A stretch of DNA of 45,772 nucleotides from a virus: positions 1 to 45,772 of the IMG/VR virus record IMGVR_UViG_3300045049_000036, one strand, 5' to 3'. The translations under genes were made by a program, and so were the position numbers. Under the pieces are notes generated by a model. That model did no database searches. It was not told where the DNA came from and saw nothing but the letters and a program-made list of their open reading frames with translations. This document shows, piece after piece, positions 25,102 to 37,700 of the stretch (position 1 is its first letter; each line of letters begins with the position of its first letter).

Positions 25102-26811
25102 TTAACTACGAATATTACGATTTGTGTACTGCATCGTCAGGTTGATTGCAGTCAAATTCGGATAGTAAGCAGAGATAGTCGACTCAACAGGTACTGGAGG
25201 AGTAGGAGTCACTGCTCCGGTATCAGTGTATGTAAGAACGTTTCCCGGACTGGCAACTAGACCTAATGCAGGTCCTGTGATGCGACCCCAGACTCCATAG
25301 TTCGCGGCGTTAGGAACGCTCGGCCAATTTAGTAGAATTGCAGAGTTGTTAGCCGTAGTCGTAATAGACGCCCATTTTGCTGGTGCGGATGATCCACCCA
25401 GAGTGGAACTCACATTGATAGAATAGTCATAAGTTCCAATCGGAAGTGTTCCACCACCGAGCACCTCTGTCAAGGTGGGGGCTTCAACACCCAATGTAGA
25501 GAGCGCATAATCTATTGTGGGGCTAATAAGTTGGACAAACTCCACGTTAGAATCTGCTTCCTTGATTGTAGTGATGATGTCAGACATGTATATGTCTAAT
25601 CCAATCGATCCTTGACGTAATGCAAATAGATTTTGCAACGCTGCCTCAATCTCAGCCTGAACGTTTGTCAAGTTTGAGAACGTCTTACAGCTAACTATGG
25701 CGGTTACTGTAATGTTTACTGGTTGTGGATCACTACGAACAATGCGTGTACTGTACATTGTGCTATCGTTGAACCACGTTTCAAAATTGCTCCAGTCTGT
25801 TGGACTCCACGAACTTTCTGTCAGCAAAGACACTTTCATGGTGTTCATCCAGTTCAAGGCATAGGGATTTATTTCACGTTGAGACAAGACACGGGCATCA
25901 ATCACACCTGGATACTGAAGCGGCAGCGCCTTGTACTGAGTACCAGTCACTGCGCTATCAAACGCACCGAATAGAGCTGGAGTGACGTTCTTAAAGATGA
26001 CATAATCTGGCTCATTTCCACCGCCAGAAGGTCCACCTGATGGAGTTCCGCTTACAGTCGGGTCGCCATCCATTACGATTTGTTTGTTTTGCGTGACGAT
26101 GTTTGTCCCGTCTTGGCCAGCAGTCACTACATAGGTTAATTGAACAACATCATTGGCTCCAGGCTTTGATCCGTAGATGTCGTTCCCAAACAGGACAATC
26201 ATTCTCCCGTCTGGCAGTGTGAAATCTTGTACGCCAGCTTGACCTTTCTTTGTCCAAAGGCCTTTGATTATGACTGGAACGCTAACGTTGTTAATCAACA
26301 ACAAAACGTCAGTGTTAGACACTTGGAAACTATCTTCGGCACTGACAAATGCCTGGAAATCGGTTCCTTGCCCATACGCTGATTTGGTTACAACAGATCC
26401 TTGATATAGAGTGACAGATCGTGGGGTATTGGCAACAAACGTCAACGCATCTCTGTTGAACCAATTTGTGCCAGCCCCAACAAATTGAGTGTATGGATCA
26501 ATTGTTCGACTTGAGGTCGAAGTCATGTTGAAGGTGATCGATGCAGGGGATTTTCGTGCTACTCGAACACCCGCATAATTGGTTGCGGCGTAAAGGCTAT
26601 CTGCGTTCTTCGCGCTGTCTGGAAAGGCCTCTTGATACGAGCTCTCAATAGCGAATTGGGAATACGCACCAATGGCTGCGATCATTTCGATGATCGTTTG
26701 TCCTGTAGCTCCAGTTATACGATCTGTCCATGTGGGATATGTAGCTGCTTGAGTTTGAAGTTGTGAAACAAGCGAATCCCAGTCAGGGGCGATGTTTGAT
26801 AGTTGCATCAT
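25102..26811 (-). CDS. Baseplate wedge protein, gp6/gpJ-like, with inserted Ig/FN3-like domain
   Basis: The product is 569 residues from the ATG at 26811 with AAGGA upstream. The N-terminal TIIEMIAAIGAYSQFAIE and later segments (ARKSPASITFNM, VSCKTFSNLTNVQAEIEAALQ) match the gpJ/gp6 baseplate wedge family that forms the ring around the hub. Residues about 443-541 (EAPTLTEVLGGGTLPIGTYDY ... NWPSVPNAANYGVWGR ... TYTDTG) form an Ig/FN3-like domain placed near the C-terminus; the same type of domain occurs in the tail sheath of this phage. It lies between gp25-like and gpI-like genes, as usual. Confidence 0.85.
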   Translation of the reverse strand: MMQLSNIAPDWDSLVSQLQTQAATYPTWTDRITGATGQTIIEMIAAIGAYSQFAIESSYQEAFPDSAKNADSLYAATNYAGVRVARKSPASITFNMTSTSSRTIDPYTQFVGAGTNWFNRDALTFVANTPRSVTLYQGSVVTKSAYGQGTDFQAFVSAEDSFQVSNTDVLLLINNVSVPVIIKGLWTKKGQAGVQDFTLPDGRMIVLFGNDIYGSKPGANDVVQLTYVVTAGQDGTNIVTQNKQIVMDGDPTVSGTPSGGPSGGGNEPDYVIFKNVTPALFGAFDSAVTGTQYKALPLQYPGVIDARVLSQREINPYALNWMNTMKVSLLTESSWSPTDWSNFETWFNDSTMYSTRIVRSDPQPVNITVTAIVSCKTFSNLTNVQAEIEAALQNLFALRQGSIGLDIYMSDIITTIKEADSNVEFVQLISPTIDYALSTLGVEAPTLTEVLGGGTLPIGTYDYSINVSSTLGGSSAPAKWASITTTANNSAILLNWPSVPNAANYGVWGRITGPALGLVASPGNVLTYTDTGAVTPTPPVPVESTISAYYPNLTAINLTMQYTNRNIRS

Positions 26812-30608: not shown

Positions 30609-31874
30609 CTAAGAATTGATGACGTAGACTCGATCGTCGCGCCCTCGTATAAGTTGAATGGATTGTTCTTGTTTTAGAGGTAGATGCAAATACGCTGCCG
30701 TATCTTGATCTACGTTACTTGTCCCAATATCGGTTGTGATATCAGGAGCCCTTTCATAATGAGCAGTTACTTCTCCTACTGGTTGAGAAATTGCTCTAGC
30801 AACATTTCCTACACTTCTGTTGTCTTGAGTAGTGCCAGATGTTGCAACGTTCGTGCCAGTTCGATTAATGCTGGCTTTCTGTCTGTCGGGGGTAACGACA
30901 GAAACTTGAATGTTCTTCGGACTTGCAGTAGACTCCGCGTATTGTGAATCGAGGTTGGGATCTGCGTCTTTCGCATAACTAAGGATCTTTCCTTCCTGCT
31001 TTGCTAAGATCTGTCTAAGCGTTAGCGGTTTAGTCTGATCACCTCTCTCGAAGAATACATTCGGATTTGCTTTTGCAGCCTTAGGAAATAATTCTGATCC
31101 TAGGGCGTTTGGACTTTTTTCTGTTGCTTTCAAAAAGCGAAGTGCCCCAGACGGTCCTAGAAAATAGCCCATATAGACTTCACCATACGAAGGCTTGCGT
31201 CCCAATCCTCGTTGTAAAGTTTCGTTGATGTCACGAACATAAAGTCCAGCAACTTGAGCACTTTTACGAGGATCGTTTCGATCTTGTGATGTATAGTCAA
31301 GTTTGTATTGATCACACAGATATTTCCAAGTGGAATCTGTGAACTGAAACAAACCTACTGCACTTGACGTAGTCGCTGAAGCTGTCTGCCTGAATGATGA
31401 TTCGGCCCCCGCAACTGCATATAACAATGCGTAGTCAACATTACGCCCAGAAGAAGCTTGCCGTATAGCGTCTTGAACGTCTTTATTAGGACGTGCTCCA
31501 TGCAGATTTTTAGGGACTTCTGGTGTAGTAAGAGGACTTGGACCTATCTGACTACCAATTGCTTCTTGTTCTTGTTGTTTTTCTTCCTTAGACTTAAATA
31601 GGTCTTTACTCCAGTCAGTGCCTTTATCCAGCAACGATGGCATTTCCTTACCATCAGGGCCCGAATGTGTAGTAACAAGAAAGGTTCCAATCGCAGCCGC
31701 TACGGCAGAAGATCCTGCTATCAGAGACTTGGTTAAAAGCTCTTGCCCACTTTGTTGCCGATCTTCAGAACTACCATGAAAGTCTAGGACATGTTTAATT
31801 GTTTCACTTCGTTTTCTGTCTGCATCAAACATTGATAACAGTCGAGAGGCGACTGCATTTCGAACTTCAAACAC
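30609..31874 (-). CDS. Virion protein with lytic transglycosylase (SLT) domain
   Basis: The start is a GTG at 31874 with GGGAGG 6 bases upstream; the product is 421 residues. A hydrophobic segment lies at about 50-68. The SLT domain spans about 130-270: YALLYAVAGAESSFRQTA contains catalytic Glu158, followed by SAVGLFQFTDSTWKYL and the usual GEVYMGYFLGPSGALRFL. Such proteins travel in the tail and open peptidoglycan as the genome enters. It lies next to the tape measure, which carries a second peptidoglycan-active domain. Confidence 0.85.
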   Translation of the reverse strand: MFEVRNAVASRLLSMFDADRKRSETIKHVLDFHGSSEDRQQSGQELLTKSLIAGSSAVAAAIGTFLVTTHSGPDGKEMPSLLDKGTDWSKDLFKSKEEKQQEQEAIGSQIGPSPLTTPEVPKNLHGARPNKDVQDAIRQASSGRNVDYALLYAVAGAESSFRQTASATTSSAVGLFQFTDSTWKYLCDQYKLDYTSQDRNDPRKSAQVAGLYVRDINETLQRGLGRKPSYGEVYMGYFLGPSGALRFLKATEKSPNALGSELFPKAAKANPNVFFERGDQTKPLTLRQILAKQEGKILSYAKDADPNLDSQYAESTASPKNIQVSVVTPDRQKASINRTGTNVATSGTTQDNRSVGNVARAISQPVGEVTAHYERAPDITTDIGTSNVDQDTAAYLHLPLKQEQSIQLIRGRDDRVYVINS

Positions 31875-31892: not shown

Positions 31893-34800
31893 TTAAATGA
31901 TGCCGGTGTTGAGAGCAAGGAAAACACCATCAGAACTGTCAAATGTTGGGATAGAACTAGCACTCACCCTAGAACCACCAGCACTGCCACGTGACGAAAT
32001 ATTCTGTTGAGCCAAAGCAGTTTGAGCACCGTTCATAGCATTTGACTTGGGAATTTCGTAATTAGCATTAGTGACAGATGGCGCGTTCTGCCGAGCAGTT
32101 GCCGTCGGAATCCTTTGTCCTTGATCGGTTGGCGCATCTGCACTAAACAAACCAGCTTTTGCCGCCGCAACAGAAATGCCCGCTGGTTGAATATGCCATT
32201 TCTCATTTGGAATGGGACGTGTGAATCCGTACTTCGATAGCAAACCGAGATTATCCAACTCATTGGCTTGAGTAGACGGAATATCTACAGCGAGACCAAA
32301 ATTATGTAGTGATGATCCAGGTTTTGCGGCCATTCCAGGAGGTTTGGTCCGGAACAGCTTGGATTGTTCATCCAGTGAGCGGAATGCAGAATTGAAGTTT
32401 AATTTCTTTCCAGTTGCTTCATAGTATTCCTGTCCCATCCTGGTCAACGAATCTTGCATCTGGGGATGCAAGCCGTCCGTATCAACACCACTGCTCTTTG
32501 AGAATAACTTGCCCATGAAGTCGCTTACGCGACCCCCAGAACCACCATCATTCTTTCCATATTGAGAACCTGCAGGCCCTCCATAGTCGTTTCCGATCGT
32601 GGCACTAGCTCGTTGTTCTTTTTGGCCGGTAACCGATACAGAAGGTAGTTGGACAGCGAATGCTGTCTTATCGTCAAGAACGGGACTTACTGAATTGCTA
32701 GGAGTCGGAGCTGTTTCTTGTTCAGGTTTAACGAAGTCAGGGTTGATTGATCCTCGTCCTGCATCAGCTAGAGACAATCCAGTCGCTGATAGGTCAGGCC
32801 CTTTCGCTGTCGCGCCTAATTTTGGTTTTGCTCCAGACTTGGACGCAAAATCACCTCTACCTGCCAGCATGTCACGGATCTTATCGTTATTCGTTTTCCC
32901 ACCAAACAAGTGAGTAGCGGCATCTCCAGTGGCTTCAAGTCCATTCTGAATATTGTCACCAAACTTGTTATAGATGAACTTCCCTGCTGCTTGTCCAGCT
33001 TCCCATGCTGCAAATACAGCTAGCCCCTTACCTAACATTCCCATCAGACCAGGAAGCATTTTTCCAAGACCGCCTATAGCATTGCTTAAACCGCCGAGTG
33101 TTGATGCCAAAGATCCCAGGTTTGAAGTTGATCCAGCAGTAGTTGCTCGACCCCGTAGTTCAGTTAGTAGACGTTGGTTAAATCGTTCTTGTGCCGCAGC
33201 ATGTGCTTCAAGAATATCGTTAAGACGCTTTGCTTCTCGCAAACTGTCTTCTTGGTAGTCGTTAGTCTTCTGTTGTGCTTGATCCTGATGAGTACTCACC
33301 GGAATAGGGAGCACAGAACTCGTTGCTGTCTTTGCATCTGGATTCTTAGTCGCTTGTGCTATAGACACGGGAGTCATTGATCCTGCTCTAAACGCACCTA
33401 CTTTATCCGGATCGAACTTGTTTCGCAACTCAATCATTGGTTCTTGCACATCCGCTGCATCTAATGCCGCACGTTGAGCAGACAGACGGGCTTCCATTGC
33501 AGCAGCAAAGCGATCCTTTGCTTTGCGAGCACCCATCTTGCCGCGTGGCATATTAGCTTTCCCAGGACGTACTGCATTCTTATCGTGACGTGCTTGTATT
33601 TCTTGTAAGCGGCGATCCATCTCGAGCATTTTTGTGTCGAGCCCAGATCGTACAGCTTCTGCCTGTTTCAAGTCCTCCAACTGATCAGAAATCTTTGCTA
33701 GGTCAGCATTTTGTGTTGGACTAGTTAGGCGTGCTCCGCGTTTTTTACGCGGATGTGTTAGTGGATCATCAGCATCATACTCTGCTGGTGGGATGGCCGG
33801 AGCTAATGGTGATAATGGAGTTGCACCTACTATTGGTTGAGGTCCGTTGTGCCGAATCATCGACCCAATAGCGGTAGGCGTGTGTCCTATTCCCTTTGCT
33901 CCAGCACGCAGAATACGTTGTGCTCCAAAGTATTGAGCAACAGATTTTCCTGCCCCATAAACTGCTCTTCCACCGCGATAAACACCAACTCCTGCACGAA
34001 CAGCATTACCCAACGTAAGTGGACCAACACCCATGAAGTCCAGAGCACGCATTCCAGTGCGCTTTCCCCAGCCCTTCATTTTTGCATGTGTGTCCGCAAG
34101 TAGAGCAGCCGCCTCACGCTGAGCAGTTATCAAAACTGCGGTTTGGTCTTCAATCTCATCGAGGCGACGCTGCAACTTTTCTGGCATAGCCTCTTGAAGA
34201 GTTTCAATCTTCTTCAAACTTTTGACCAACAATGCGTTGCGTTCGTGATCACTCGCATTTTCTGGCGCGTCTTTGATAGCACGTATCAAGTGTTGTTCCA
34301 ACAGACGCATTTCGCGGACTTGACGCTGTGACAGCTTTTCGTTGTTCTCTTGCATGTAGTCTTGCAAGGCACTTAGTCTGGCACCTGCGTCTGTCTGAAC
34401 AGTTTGAAACTGTTGTTGAGTCTTGATGAAATCCTTGTTGTCTTTTTCGATCTTCTTTAGTTCTTGAGTGGCAGTAGCAATAACACGTTTTAAGGCCAAT
34501 CGATCAGCAGCCGACAGTCCTCTTTGTCCGTATGCCGCTTGAGCGGCGGCTAGCCTTTGAAGTTGAGCTTTTGGTGCGTCTACTAAACGTTTGCGTAATT
34601 CAAACGTAAGATCATCATATACTTCTTCATCACCTATCTTGATACGACGAGGTGCGCTTGACGTCTTTTCTTTCTGACGTAGACCGCGCAAAACATTCTG
34701 ATTTCGACGTTTGCGCTCTTGATCTTCCTTCTTTTTGGCTGCTTCAATTTCTTTCTTGATTCGTTCAGCTTCTTTTGCAGCCTTCTTTGCAAGCTCGGCA

Positions 34801-34931
34801 GCTTTCTTGGCGTCTGATGCATCTTTACCTCCGCCCCCACCACCGCCACTGCCGCCGCCCGATCCACCTCCAGACGAAGGCGGACCATCGTTGTCGAAGA
34901 TGTCAGCGTCTGAAGGTTTTCTTGTAGCCAT
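31893..34931 (-). CDS. Tape measure protein with C-terminal M15 peptidase domain
   Basis: The product is 1012 residues from the ATG at 34931 with AGGAAG upstream. The N-terminus is Gly-rich then long, Lys/Glu/Ala-rich and coiled-coil-like (about 45-330 and 400-600), with Gly/Ala hydrophobic segments in the middle (LPGLMGMLGKGLAVFAAW), as in tape measures that set tail length. Residues about 830-918 form a VanY/M15-type D,D- or L,D-peptidase: SLHNFGLAVDIPS (His876, Asp883) and NEKWHIQPAG (Glu910, His913) hold the zinc site. The fusion would place a peptidoglycan cross-bridge peptidase at the tube tip. Flanked by the chaperone pair and the SLT protein. Confidence 0.88.
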   Translation of the reverse strand: MATRKPSDADIFDNDGPPSSGGGSGGGSGGGGGGGKDASDAKKAAELAKKAAKEAERIKKEIEAAKKKEDQERKRRNQNVLRGLRQKEKTSSAPRRIKIGDEEVYDDLTFELRKRLVDAPKAQLQRLAAAQAAYGQRGLSAADRLALKRVIATATQELKKIEKDNKDFIKTQQQFQTVQTDAGARLSALQDYMQENNEKLSQRQVREMRLLEQHLIRAIKDAPENASDHERNALLVKSLKKIETLQEAMPEKLQRRLDEIEDQTAVLITAQREAAALLADTHAKMKGWGKRTGMRALDFMGVGPLTLGNAVRAGVGVYRGGRAVYGAGKSVAQYFGAQRILRAGAKGIGHTPTAIGSMIRHNGPQPIVGATPLSPLAPAIPPAEYDADDPLTHPRKKRGARLTSPTQNADLAKISDQLEDLKQAEAVRSGLDTKMLEMDRRLQEIQARHDKNAVRPGKANMPRGKMGARKAKDRFAAAMEARLSAQRAALDAADVQEPMIELRNKFDPDKVGAFRAGSMTPVSIAQATKNPDAKTATSSVLPIPVSTHQDQAQQKTNDYQEDSLREAKRLNDILEAHAAAQERFNQRLLTELRGRATTAGSTSNLGSLASTLGGLSNAIGGLGKMLPGLMGMLGKGLAVFAAWEAGQAAGKFIYNKFGDNIQNGLEATGDAATHLFGGKTNNDKIRDMLAGRGDFASKSGAKPKLGATAKGPDLSATGLSLADAGRGSINPDFVKPEQETAPTPSNSVSPVLDDKTAFAVQLPSVSVTGQKEQRASATIGNDYGGPAGSQYGKNDGGSGGRVSDFMGKLFSKSSGVDTDGLHPQMQDSLTRMGQEYYEATGKKLNFNSAFRSLDEQSKLFRTKPPGMAAKPGSSLHNFGLAVDIPSTQANELDNLGLLSKYGFTRPIPNEKWHIQPAGISVAAAKAGLFSADAPTDQGQRIPTATARQNAPSVTNANYEIPKSNAMNGAQTALAQQNISSRGSAGGSRVSASSIPTFDSSDGVFLALNTGII

Positions 34932-34939
34932 TGCACTTC

Positions 34940-35086
34940 CTAACTGTTAAGTCGTTTTCGCACTCTAGCGTCTACAGCGTTAGAAACATGGATCAACAAC
35001 CGCAAATCCATATCCATCGACAGAAGTTGGTTATGCTCACGTAAAACCAAGTCTATTCGGTTGAATAGGTTCTCTTCTGTGATGCT
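34940..35086 (-). CDS. Putative +1 frameshift extension of the tail-assembly chaperone
   Basis: A 48-codon frame begins immediately past the TAG of the 35085-36347 gene in the +1 frame and has no ATG, GTG or TTG near its beginning; the first in-frame candidates are a TTG at 35050 and later ATGs, none with a ribosome binding site. The encoded residues look real (ITEENLFNRIDLVLREHNQL, later LLIHVSNAVDARVRKRL) and end 8 bases before the tape measure ATG. This matches the gene order of lambda G-GT, in which a frameshifted longer chaperone is made from the gene before the tape measure. If it is read by frameshifting, the joined product is about 468 residues. Confidence 0.65.
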   Translation of the reverse strand, partial: SITEENLFNRIDLVLREHNQLLSMDMDLRLLIHVSNAVDARVRKRLNS

Positions 35087-35093
35087 AGGGAAG
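35083..35093 (-). other. Candidate programmed +1 frameshift site (CTT CCC TAG C)
   Basis: The 0-frame reads CTT CCC TAG. Moving the proline tRNA one base forward re-pairs it with CCT, after which reading continues AGC ATC ACA into the 48-codon extension. A proline CCC followed by U and a slow stop codon is the type of +1 site described in Listeria phage PSA structural genes; E. coli prfB uses a comparable CUU-stop site. No pseudoknot search was possible. Confidence 0.6.
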
Positions 35094-36347
35094 AAACGTG
35101 AACGCGTCTACCGAGAGTTTAACTCGGTGAGACGCGCCACACTCCTTGCAACGAAGAACTGCCGATTCAGACACGCCGTAGCTAGTTACTGCCTCGATAT
35201 ACTTATCTAACTGAAAGATTTCATCTGCAGACATCTGCTTGACGATCTCGTTTCGTTCAAGAATAGTGTTGCGCCCTGGACCGCGACGCAAAAACACTGA
35301 ACGTGTTTGCAACCATTCTACTTCATCAAAAGATTCATCTGATGGTCCATCATCAATAGTAGCTGTTGTTTGTTCTGTACCGTACTGAGATTGAACTTCA
35401 GTTTCAGTCTCAGTCTCAGCTACAGTCTGCATATAGTAAGGTTCTTCTTCCTGCAGTTCTGAGAACTCCACAAGATCACGCATGGTTTCTACATGAAGAT
35501 CATACTTGTCGATTAGATCCTGAAATTCAGATAGATCTAACTCTTCAAGATATTCTGTTTTCAACGTTGTTGCATCAAGAATGGTGCTAATGTCCAGTGT
35601 TTCTGCCGCGAGATATTCAGGATTCTCTGGCTTCAGCAATGTGCGTCTTACGTGTTCCTTGTTAGTGCACGTAAATGGAATCATCTGTGGGTTCTTTGGA
35701 AACGACTGTAGACGATGCCAATATAGAAGGAAGTAAAAATCCTGTGGTGTCAAATCAAACGCTGAAACACCTTCACCAAGAGTAGAACTGATTGCCTCTA
35801 CTACATAGCGCATCTTGCGATCTTTTGTAGCTCGTGCCATCTTCGCCTGATGCATTCCCTTCAAGCAACATACGGTCAATGTAGAGAATGTATAGAACTT
35901 GGATTGAGATGGCAAACCAATGGACATGAATCCTGGATCGATTTCCGCCTGCGAACGAACTGCTGTATCATCAACAGTTAGGTTACGGCGTTGACGCTCT
36001 AACTCCAAACGCGTTGGACGGCGTTTGCCCACGGTTACGCTAACTGTTTGATTCCTTGGTTTTGAAGTTGTTTGCTGTAGCTGTTGTTCAAGACGCTCAC
36101 GAACAGGATGTCCTGGAGGCAACGAGTCGATCATTTGACGATCAGTCTTTTTCCGTTGTGACTGCTCGTACGCTTGTTGAGCCTTTGTTGTAGTAGCTCG
36201 CTGCGCACTTGGTTCACGATTTGGATCTGTGGAGTTTGGAGCTCGCGTTGCAGGGCCTTTCCGTTCGGAAGGGAACGCATGATGCTCTTCACCGAGAACG
36301 GTGATCTTAGGTGTTGGCCGCTGTGTGCCTTGGGATGGGTGTTGCAT
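35085..36347 (-). CDS. Baseplate hub / tape-measure chaperone, T4-type
   Basis: The product is 420 residues from the ATG at 36347 with GAGG upstream. The N-terminal ~125 residues are Gln/Thr/Arg-rich and likely disordered. A central block (FMSIGLPSQSKFYTF, then LTPQDFYFLLYWHRLQSFP and FTCTNKEH) resembles T4-type baseplate hub assembly chaperones. The C-terminus has an acidic region and CKECGASH, a possible zinc knuckle. Its position between tube-fold proteins and the tape measure is that of the tail-assembly chaperone. The gene ends at a CCC TAG with an open +1 frame beyond, described separately. Confidence 0.7.
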   Translation of the reverse strand: MQHPSQGTQRPTPKITVLGEEHHAFPSERKGPATRAPNSTDPNREPSAQRATTTKAQQAYEQSQRKKTDRQMIDSLPPGHPVRERLEQQLQQTTSKPRNQTVSVTVGKRRPTRLELERQRRNLTVDDTAVRSQAEIDPGFMSIGLPSQSKFYTFSTLTVCCLKGMHQAKMARATKDRKMRYVVEAISSTLGEGVSAFDLTPQDFYFLLYWHRLQSFPKNPQMIPFTCTNKEHVRRTLLKPENPEYLAAETLDISTILDATTLKTEYLEELDLSEFQDLIDKYDLHVETMRDLVEFSELQEEEPYYMQTVAETETETEVQSQYGTEQTTATIDDGPSDESFDEVEWLQTRSVFLRRGPGRNTILERNEIVKQMSADEIFQLDKYIEAVTSYGVSESAVLRCKECGASHRVKLSVDAFTFLP

Positions 36348-36373: not shown

Positions 36374-37177
36374 TTAGAATGATAGATTTACAAAATTGGA
36401 AGGAAACACGTCTGGCAGCGCACTGATCATCGGTGGGAAATCCATACCGAAAGTGCTCATTGCAGAGGGGATGTTCGTGCTGTCAAACTTGCCAACTTTT
36501 ACGTTGAGTTCGTCGACGCTGAATTCACAACCTGCTACTATTCTTTCAGATTGAGAACTTCCAAAGTTGTATGATTCTGGTCGCATGGGCCACGCGCCGG
36601 TGTAATCTAAGCACATCACGGTTTGCTTGGCTACGTCTAGAATCCAGATTGAGATTGTTTTCTTGAAATCCTTTGGGAAGTAGTAGAGTCCGGTTCCTGT
36701 GTTAAGAACCATACTCTGCCATGTCTTTAGATACGATGCTACCGTGCCATAGCTATCTTCATAGAACTTGAGACTCAGTGTTCCTAGGCTATAATGATGC
36801 GGGAAGTGAAAGTTTTTACCTGCACGATAGTTGGAAATCTGTTCAAATTCAATGAACGGCAGTGTTGCTTCTTCAACATATTCCCAGCCTATTGCTGTAG
36901 AACCGTTCAAGATGGGCATATCGCACCACCAATTGAAATTCATCAACGGATCTGGGCGTGCTCTCGCAGCTGCTAACGGATCTTTCTGTCCAGATGGAAA
37001 CGAAGAGGTCTTTGCTAAACCAATTCCGTTTGATACATCGCTGAACACTTGTCCCTCAAGCTGACTAGCTGCTCCGTTAAGAAAGCTAGTCGCTGAGGAC
37101 AATGTCTGTTGAGCCAACGACTGCACTTGCCCTAGAGCCTGAGTTTTCAGATCATCTAGAGAAAATGGGAAGCCCAT
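36374..37177 (-). CDS. Second tube-fold (gp19-like) protein
   Basis: The product is 267 residues from the ATG at 37177 with AAGG upstream. An N-terminal helical region (TQALGQVQSLAQQTLSSATSF) precedes a core with tube-family features: NFNWWCDMPIL, TLPFIEFEQIS, KNFHFPHHYSLGTLSLKFYED, then SIWILDVAKQTVMCLDYTGAWP. This is the beta-barrel pattern of gp19-like proteins, as in the 37194-37700 tube gene before it. It may form the tube's terminal or adaptor ring near the baseplate rather than the bulk tube. Confidence 0.65.
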   Translation of the reverse strand: MGFPFSLDDLKTQALGQVQSLAQQTLSSATSFLNGAASQLEGQVFSDVSNGIGLAKTSSFPSGQKDPLAAARARPDPLMNFNWWCDMPILNGSTAIGWEYVEEATLPFIEFEQISNYRAGKNFHFPHHYSLGTLSLKFYEDSYGTVASYLKTWQSMVLNTGTGLYYFPKDFKKTISIWILDVAKQTVMCLDYTGAWPMRPESYNFGSSQSERIVAGCEFSVDELNVKVGKFDSTNIPSAMSTFGMDFPPMISALPDVFPSNFVNLSF

Positions 37178-37193
37178 TGGGAGACCTTAAAAG

Positions 37194-37700
37194 TTAATTC
37201 GTCTCATCAATCAGGTCGTAGCTGAATGTCACGCTTGTCATAACAACACCAGAGCTGCTGTTATCCATTTGTGAATCGTCTACTGTTTCAGGCCAGCAAC
37301 CGAGCAGCTTCAAACTAGCAATTTCTGACGGGATATCGTCATAAAGAACCAGTTCGATTGTCGTGCTGTAATCAGATTTATAGCTACCACTATTCGATTG
37401 CCAATCGCGGGCAAGTTTCTGCCAACGACGAAGCATGTTGCGAGTGCCGATATCTCGGGTCTCAATCAGTGTCACAGAGAATGAATGACTATAGTTTGCA
37501 CGACCAGCATAGCGCAATTCGACACCGTGAAGAGCAACCGGCACTTGTTCCAACAGGAATCCTGGAATAGAAGTCGATTGTGCTTTATAAGTGAACGAAC
37601 GGCTATCGCCAGTACCCGGCATATTGGCAATGATTACATCCCAGTTGTATGTCTGGAGAGGATCGACCAACGAGCGAACGTCTTGAAGAGATGTGCGCAT
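37194..37700 (-). CDS. Tail tube protein, gp19-like
   Basis: The product is 168 residues from the ATG at 37700 with AAGGA upstream. TYNWDVIIANMPGTGD, then KAQSTSIPGFLLEQVPVALHG and FSVTLIETRDIGTRNMLRRW match the T4 gp19 tail tube family of Hcp-like beta barrels. The size is close to T4 gp19. It directly follows the sheath gene, the universal order in contractile phages. Confidence 0.9.
   Translation of the reverse strand: MRTSLQDVRSLVDPLQTYNWDVIIANMPGTGDSRSFTYKAQSTSIPGFLLEQVPVALHGVELRYAGRANYSHSFSVTLIETRDIGTRNMLRRWQKLARDWQSNSGSYKSDYSTTIELVLYDDIPSEIASLKLLGCWPETVDDSQMDNSSSGVVMTSVTFSYDLIDETN

Follow-up and report, generated by a model that had tools for sequence, protein, structure and literature searches.

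Locus layout and the two reading frames

The analysed stretch, referred to here as the window, covers positions 1 to 45,772 of the IMG/VR virus record IMGVR_UViG_3300045049_000036 (45,772 nucleotides). The whole site lies on its minus strand and consists of a tail chaperone gene, placed between the tail-tube genes and the tape measure, a shift site, an extension in the +1 frame and the tape measure gene. The features are the following.

36347..35085, minus strand: tail chaperone gene, zero frame, short form of 420 aa (open reading frame; phrog_13792, E 9.7e-23)
35098..35142, minus strand: extended hairpin, in which GUG/CAC and GG/UU pairs form the lower stem (minimum free energy -26.8 kcal/mol, z -5.54, 0/200 shuffles)
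35103..35136, minus strand: core 5' hairpin CGCGUCU-c-ACCGAG ... CUCGGU-AGACGCG (z -4.5 versus synonymous shuffles; covariation; frozen codons)
35085..35096, minus strand: putative shift site TTT CTT CCC TAG, slip on CUU_C or CCC_U (conserved slip element)
34940..35086, minus strand: +1 frame extension, 48 codons plus stop (codon-position bias, predicted helices, homology to in-frame paralogue C-termini)
31893..34931, minus strand: gene of the 1012-aa tape measure protein, next in the downstream direction (position and size; C-terminal VanY-type domain)

The zero-frame product terminates with ...CKECGASHRVKLSVDAFTFLP-stop, the last codons being TTT (35096-35094), CTT, CCC (35090-35088) and TAG (35087-35085). 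The +1 frame reads P-SITEENLFNRIDLVLREHNQLLSMDMDLRLLIHVSNAVDARVRKRLNS-stop, with 48 codons beyond the proline; its stop at 34942-34940 is located 8 bases upstream of the tape-measure ATG at 34931, and the long form would comprise 468 aa (P0004). A check on the sequence confirmed the coordinates and counts of the original prediction, which had described both the CTT CCC TAG with which the gene preceding the tape measure ends and the +1 frame that stays open behind it. The window protein had no Pfam match at E <= 0.1, and no gpG-named family appeared in its family searches (PHROG, Pfam).

As regards the surrounding genes, two adjoining ones at 36374-37700 (minus strand) both match gp19-type tail tube families, and the larger of them may be a tube initiator. 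The tape measure (31893-34931, minus strand) carries a VanY-type carboxypeptidase domain in its C-terminal third (residues 821-891), and a lytic transglycosylase domain was found in the gene next to it (30609-31874). No tRNA genes were detected in the window.

Within the extension, substitutions between the window and L017, an IMG/VR relative with ~65% protein identity to the window gene, are distributed 11/5/30 over the +1-frame codon positions 1/2/3, a bias which indicates that the extension is translated in the +1 frame. The AlphaFold2 model of the 468-aa long form reached a mean pLDDT of 80.8, and the extension was predicted to form two helices (pLDDT 89-97), in line with the helical domain initially proposed for it. 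Foldseek matched this model to the long paralogue of PaBG (target TM 0.74), to hub proteins of the T4-type baseplate at E 2e-5 and 5e-5 and, weakly and within the extension, to a small ORF of phage Motura (target TM 0.72, prob 0.91, E 2.1), and a fold search of the PDB with the same model yielded no match. Given the codon bias, the recurrent junction described below and the confidently predicted helices, the open frame of the extension is beyond chance.

Comparison with homologues demonstrates that the joining in the +1 frame is conserved. In 39 distinct homologues (27 from the first round and 12 fetched later), the extension follows at a common F-[F/L]-P position. Two close relatives, the IMG/VR contigs L001 and L002/L017, share about 60-65% protein identity and have kept CTT CCC TAA, and more distant ones identified by tblastn and alignment searches are Achromobacter phage Motura, Burkholderia phages BcepSauron and BcepSaruman, the Xanthomonas PhiXhv phages, Rhizobium phages, phiXF1 and QdP_Psa3. 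In addition, 38 IMG/VR loci were found, near-copies among them. No relative was obtained by a DNA-level search of phages, nor was any relative found in bacterial genome contigs. The later loci, which had not been used in forming the idea, served as an out-of-sample test, and the +1 extension and hairpin were present in 12/12.

Slip codon and upstream hairpin

A slip element is likewise established by comparison. In 27/27 first-round +1 loci, the first Phe codon is succeeded by CTT or TTT and then by C or T, and the joint probability of this YTT_Y pattern is ~1e-20 from each gene's own codon usage, a figure that ignores the relatedness of the loci. The variants seen are CUU_CCC_UAR, UUU_CCC_UAA, CUU_UCC, CUU_UAA and CUU_UGA, the last of which is the shift site of E. 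coli prfB and stands behind a hairpin in L025. CCC follows in 16 of the 27 loci and was therefore rejected as a universal slip codon. The originally proposed +1 slip on a proline CCC is supported in its direction and in the presence of CCC_UAG, whereas YUU_Y is the invariant part and the slip need not take place on CCC; the homologue alignment that had been suggested as a check bore out the conservation of the +1 frame but not that of CCC.

The slip codon in this phage may be CUU_C or CCC_U, either of which would yield ...FLPSITEEN; YUU_Y occurs in 27/27 first-round loci and CCC in 16/27. Within the frameshift model, the proposal that the slip occurs on CCC_U rather than on CUU_C has a little less than an even chance. 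CCC_TAR is found in the three-member clade of the window (with L001 and L017) and, independently, in L006, L007 and L009, and CCC is rare in the window (28/405 Pro codons). Moreover, Listeria phages use CCC_UGA, and CCC_UGA of E. coli pheL shifts at 15% (PMC5009743). Two of the 12 later loci are off the YUU rule, namely L186 (CUA CCC U, near 2373), where a slip is possible solely on CCC or the first UUU, and L181 (single UUU_U, near 2289); both keep the hairpin and the +1 extension while YUU is missing at the usual codon, which makes them useful for locating the slip codon. What speaks against CCC_U, besides the invariant YUU_Y, are the loci with CUU_UGA or CUU_UAA, in which the slip must occur at CUU or earlier.

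The upstream hairpin is the strongest evidence for programming. The original prediction had named the right site, but overlooked this strong 5' structure (35098-35142). In the window, the core hairpin is the top-scoring fold in its gene and has its 3' end 9 nt upstream of CUU and 12 nt upstream of CCC. An mRNA hairpin of 12-16 bp is located just 5' of most +1 sites, and in most +1 loci the best fold of the gene is a hairpin with a core ending 9 nt before YUU. Over 27 +1 loci, its mean z is -2.3 (synonymous shuffles), with z <= -1.6 in 20/27, and the signal is localised, with a mean z of ~0 elsewhere in the gene and of -0.36 at other gene ends of the window. In this gene-end control, the 3' end of the gene at 25102-26811 (minus strand) gave an outlying fold score (z about -8) that may be a low-variance shuffle artefact.

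The ungapped alignment of 22 loci revealed that pairing within the outer six pairs amounts to 85.6%, compared with 67.5% for shuffles and no more than 47% for slid positions, and that 23 pair cells are doubly changed versus 6.2 in shuffles (0/500), numbers that are not independent tests because the loci are related. A 15-pair version of this covariation count agrees with the six-pair version. RNAalifold returned a weak consensus for the 22-locus alignment because bulge positions vary among loci, and the count on the named structure was used instead. Furthermore, where residues are conserved, the choice among synonymous codons agrees in 93% of comparisons for the last 20 zero-frame codons, against 47% for the gene as a whole, which suggests that the nucleic acid itself is under a further constraint. 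The reading of the hairpin as a by-product of the GAS...DA protein motif, which favours GCNTC/GAYGC complementarity, was rejected, since synonymous shuffles correct for the motif; it is also ruled out by loci with other residues (L005, L028, L039 and L045).

The hairpin is not universal among the +1 members, its significance being absent in L037, L051, L052, L006, L007 and L009. No 3' stimulatory structure was found (mean z -0.56), and Rfam gave no match. An AAGGAG run resembling a Shine-Dalgarno sequence is present at 35147-35142 (minus strand), ~50 nt before the slip site, where it codes for part of a CKECG zinc motif; it recurs in many homologues and is possibly mere codon choice for Lys-Glu.

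Whereas the conservation of the hairpin is a result of the comparison, its stimulatory role is one that we infer: it probably drives the +1 slip. We regard it as unlikely that the hairpin serves another purpose, such as an autoregulatory protein site, mRNA processing or termination, and that slippage proceeds via CCC_UAG or CUU_C and slow termination alone, a situation that the Rhizobium phages, phiXF1 and QdP_Psa3 may exemplify with CCC_UAA and a +1 extension in the absence of a significant hairpin. The fixed distance to the slip site, the sharp localisation, the loss of the hairpin in both -1 sub-branches described below and its absence in -1 cyanophages (mean z -0.29) argue against such a purpose, and an intrinsic terminator is unlikely, given that a U-run directly after the hairpin is missing.

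Other routes to the extension and the relation to T4

In three loci from two sub-branches, the extension lies in the -1 frame, all with T_TTT_TTC at the equivalent place and with the hairpin missing (z +1.1, -0.1 and -0.4); in the tree, whose root is undetermined, they are placed at two positions inside the +1 group. Frame, slip motif and hairpin therefore change together, which neither a separate gene nor chance would predict. Tandem paralogues were identified in Pseudomonas phages Lu11 and PaBG, phage NCTB and an Erwinia Y3-type phage. In these duplicated lineages, the first copy ends near the short-form end and the second runs on in frame. In an hhalign comparison (E 6.4e-20), the profile of the fused +1 products matched the long paralogues of Lu11, PaBG and NCTB across the junction and as far as the extension reaches, and this homology is the strongest evidence that the fused long form is a real protein.

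GenBank presents either a separate ORF of 50-64 aa after the gene (Motura, BcepSauron/Saruman, PhiXhv and Rhizobium phages) or nothing at all, and some loci have an ATG ~10 codons into the extension, a few of them with an SD-like run. That the extension is a separate small gene with its own translation or with reinitiation at UAG is nevertheless very improbable. As had been noted early on, the extension has no start signal nearby: no ATG, GTG or TTG occurs in the window +1 frame before codon 15, no Shine-Dalgarno was found at its start, and an SD-backed start is missing in 21/30 loci. In the DNA, no stop interrupts the +1 frame across the junction, the two frames meet at one and the same residue in every case, the direction of the shift follows the slip motif, relatives encode the extension fused in frame, and frozen slip codons and a hairpin would be needless for a separate gene. 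The small GenBank genes at L003:4755-4949, L004:4914-5066, L005:4863-5015 and L006:4962-5129 start inside or just past the junction and are probably mis-annotated, representing the +1 extension. Homologues in which the extension is a separate gene, which the original prediction had considered as the opposing case, thus exist in annotation only, and the DNA joins the frames everywhere; the real alternative seen among relatives is a duplicated gene of which one copy carries the extension in frame. An open frame shifted one base after a stop resembles an indel error, but a sequencing error or a decayed gene is hardly conceivable and was rejected, as dozens of independent genomes repeat the architecture with different bases.

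Judged from intermediates, the window gene is a distant relative of T4 gp26/gp51. The link relies on them since a direct hhalign of the window-family C-terminus with T4 gp26/gp51 was weak; a direct Pfam search for this family with the window protein gave no hit either (E <= 0.1). Relatives of the window gene match PF12322, the T4 gp26/gp51 family, with the PaBG and NCTB long paralogues above the cut-off, and T4 gp26 matches the PHROG of the window at 9e-4. Together with the fold matches, these intermediates support the relation to T4-type hub chaperones that had been considered from the beginning. T4 gp26 ends ...EFFELL, about where the short form ends, and gp51 has an extra C-terminal stretch of ~45 aa; in contrast to the window gene, which has no Pfam match of its own, T4 has two separate genes and no frameshift.

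In T4-like cyanophages, a short gp51 ORF follows gp26 in the -1 frame, and T_TTT_TTC stands just before the gp26 stop in 80/80 IMG/VR cyanophage loci (34 distinct junctions); Rhizobium phage IC12 has the same -1 gp51 ORF and T_TTT_TTC. The apparent -1 join of gp26 to the gp51 ORF is located at L070:2974-3890, L071:2980-3860 and in L072-L151 (cyanophages and Rhizobium phage IC12). The fused cyanophage product aligned end to end with T4 gp51 (E 3.2e-17). An ATG is also present after the gp26 stop in cyanophages, so that independent translation of gp51 is possible there. In the light of the -1 joining, T4 appears to have the short form as gp26 and the long form as gp51, each in a gene of its own.

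Proposed mechanism and significance

We consider it highly probable that one gene of this large tailed phage gives rise to two tail-assembly chaperones by a hairpin-aided +1 slip, with roles like those of G and GT. Most ribosomes would halt at UAG, a stop codon read by RF1, resulting in the 420-aa short form, while a fraction would slip one base forward on CUU CCC UAG and translate 48 more codons to give the 468-aa long form with an added two-helix C-terminal domain. In the P site, tRNA-Leu would re-pair with UUC instead of CUU, or tRNA-Pro with CCU instead of CCC. The hairpin would refold at the mRNA exit, ~4-12 nt behind the P-site codon depending on the extent of the lower stem, and bias the ribosome 3'-ward, thus taking the role of the internal Shine-Dalgarno in prfB. 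By analogy, the short form may serve as a coat of the tape measure, and the long form, as the rarer one, may add a function, e.g. the recruitment of tube or hub proteins. That ribosomes shift frame at this site, how efficiently and on which codon they do so, and that the products act like G and GT, is inferred.

Working with an E. coli 70S system, Huang et al. (2018, PMC6321510) found +1 frameshifting at CUUUGA to be stimulated by a stable hairpin placed upstream, which mimics the internal SD, and this hairpin-driven shift appeared only without RF2 (PMC6321510). Given the UAG in the window, we counted this dependence on RF2 against our model. Effects of refolding hairpins fall with distance and are best closer to the site (2013, PMC3639245); the core hairpin spacing here, 9-12 nt, exceeds the experimental optimum, and the extended stem shortens the gap.

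The locus displays a conserved +1 ORF under coding selection, a conserved re-pairing site and a 5' hairpin in most members, as expected of programmed +1 frameshifting. Its placement between tail tube and tape measure and its shifted C-terminal extension are of the lambda type, and the originally proposed G/GT-like arrangement of a short form and a +1-shifted long form is supported by the gene position and the conserved extension. As in lambda, the gene lies directly before the tape measure and would encode a short and a C-terminally extended frameshifted form; the shift is -1 there, in contrast to +1 with a 5' hairpin here, and the likeness is one of position and architecture. According to a 2016 review (PMC5009743), long-tailed phages other than T4 conserve the G-T frameshift, and the tail chaperone of the haloarchaeal myovirus HSTV-2, whose host is an archaeon, very likely uses a +1 shift. 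Listeria phages PSA, A118 and A500 shift +1 at CCC before a stop, CCC_UGA (PMC5009743). A CCC_UAG is present in the window, although CCC occurs in 16/27 loci versus 27/27 for the preceding YUU_Y; the shift in the Listeria phages concerns capsid and major tail proteins, and its stimulator is a 3' pseudoknot or the stop instead of a 5' hairpin. The prfB (RF2) gene shares the CUU slip codon, in L025 exactly as CUU_UGA, and a 5' stimulator on the exit side, but depends on an internal Shine-Dalgarno 3 nt away (PMC5009743), whose place the hairpin would take here. For T4 gene 60, a 5' stem loop zipping outside the mRNA exit has been proposed to pull the ribosome forward (PMC5009743), yet this is a 50-nt hop with a nascent-peptide signal and a matched landing codon, unlike the one-base shift considered here.

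Frameshifted tail chaperones are known, whereas their occurrence in the gp26/gp51-type family and the 5'-hairpin stimulator provisionally appear to be new. In the open-access literature searched, no report of frameshifting in gp26/gp51-type chaperones was found, nor any of a natural +1 site with a 5' hairpin from bacteria or phages, and we know of no earlier natural set of +1 sites carrying a 5' hairpin. It seems probable to us that these sites represent a natural bacterial +1 class in which an exit-refolding hairpin replaces the Shine-Dalgarno, that the gp26/gp51 superfamily switches between +1 with hairpin, -1 with T_TTT_TTC and no hairpin, and duplication, and that T4 gp26 and gp51 are the separated forms.

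With dozens of natural +1 sites carrying a 5' hairpin, the prfB-type CUU_UGA included, the upstream-duplex model becomes testable by comparison. In several jumbo-phage and T4-like genomes, a small gene annotated at this place is probably the shifted tail of its neighbour. If true, the reading of T4 gp26/gp51 would remove the known exception to the G/GT rule: T4 may appear as an exception because it makes the two proteins by another route, and the family would bring T4 under the rule and offers a way of testing gp26 and gp51 function.
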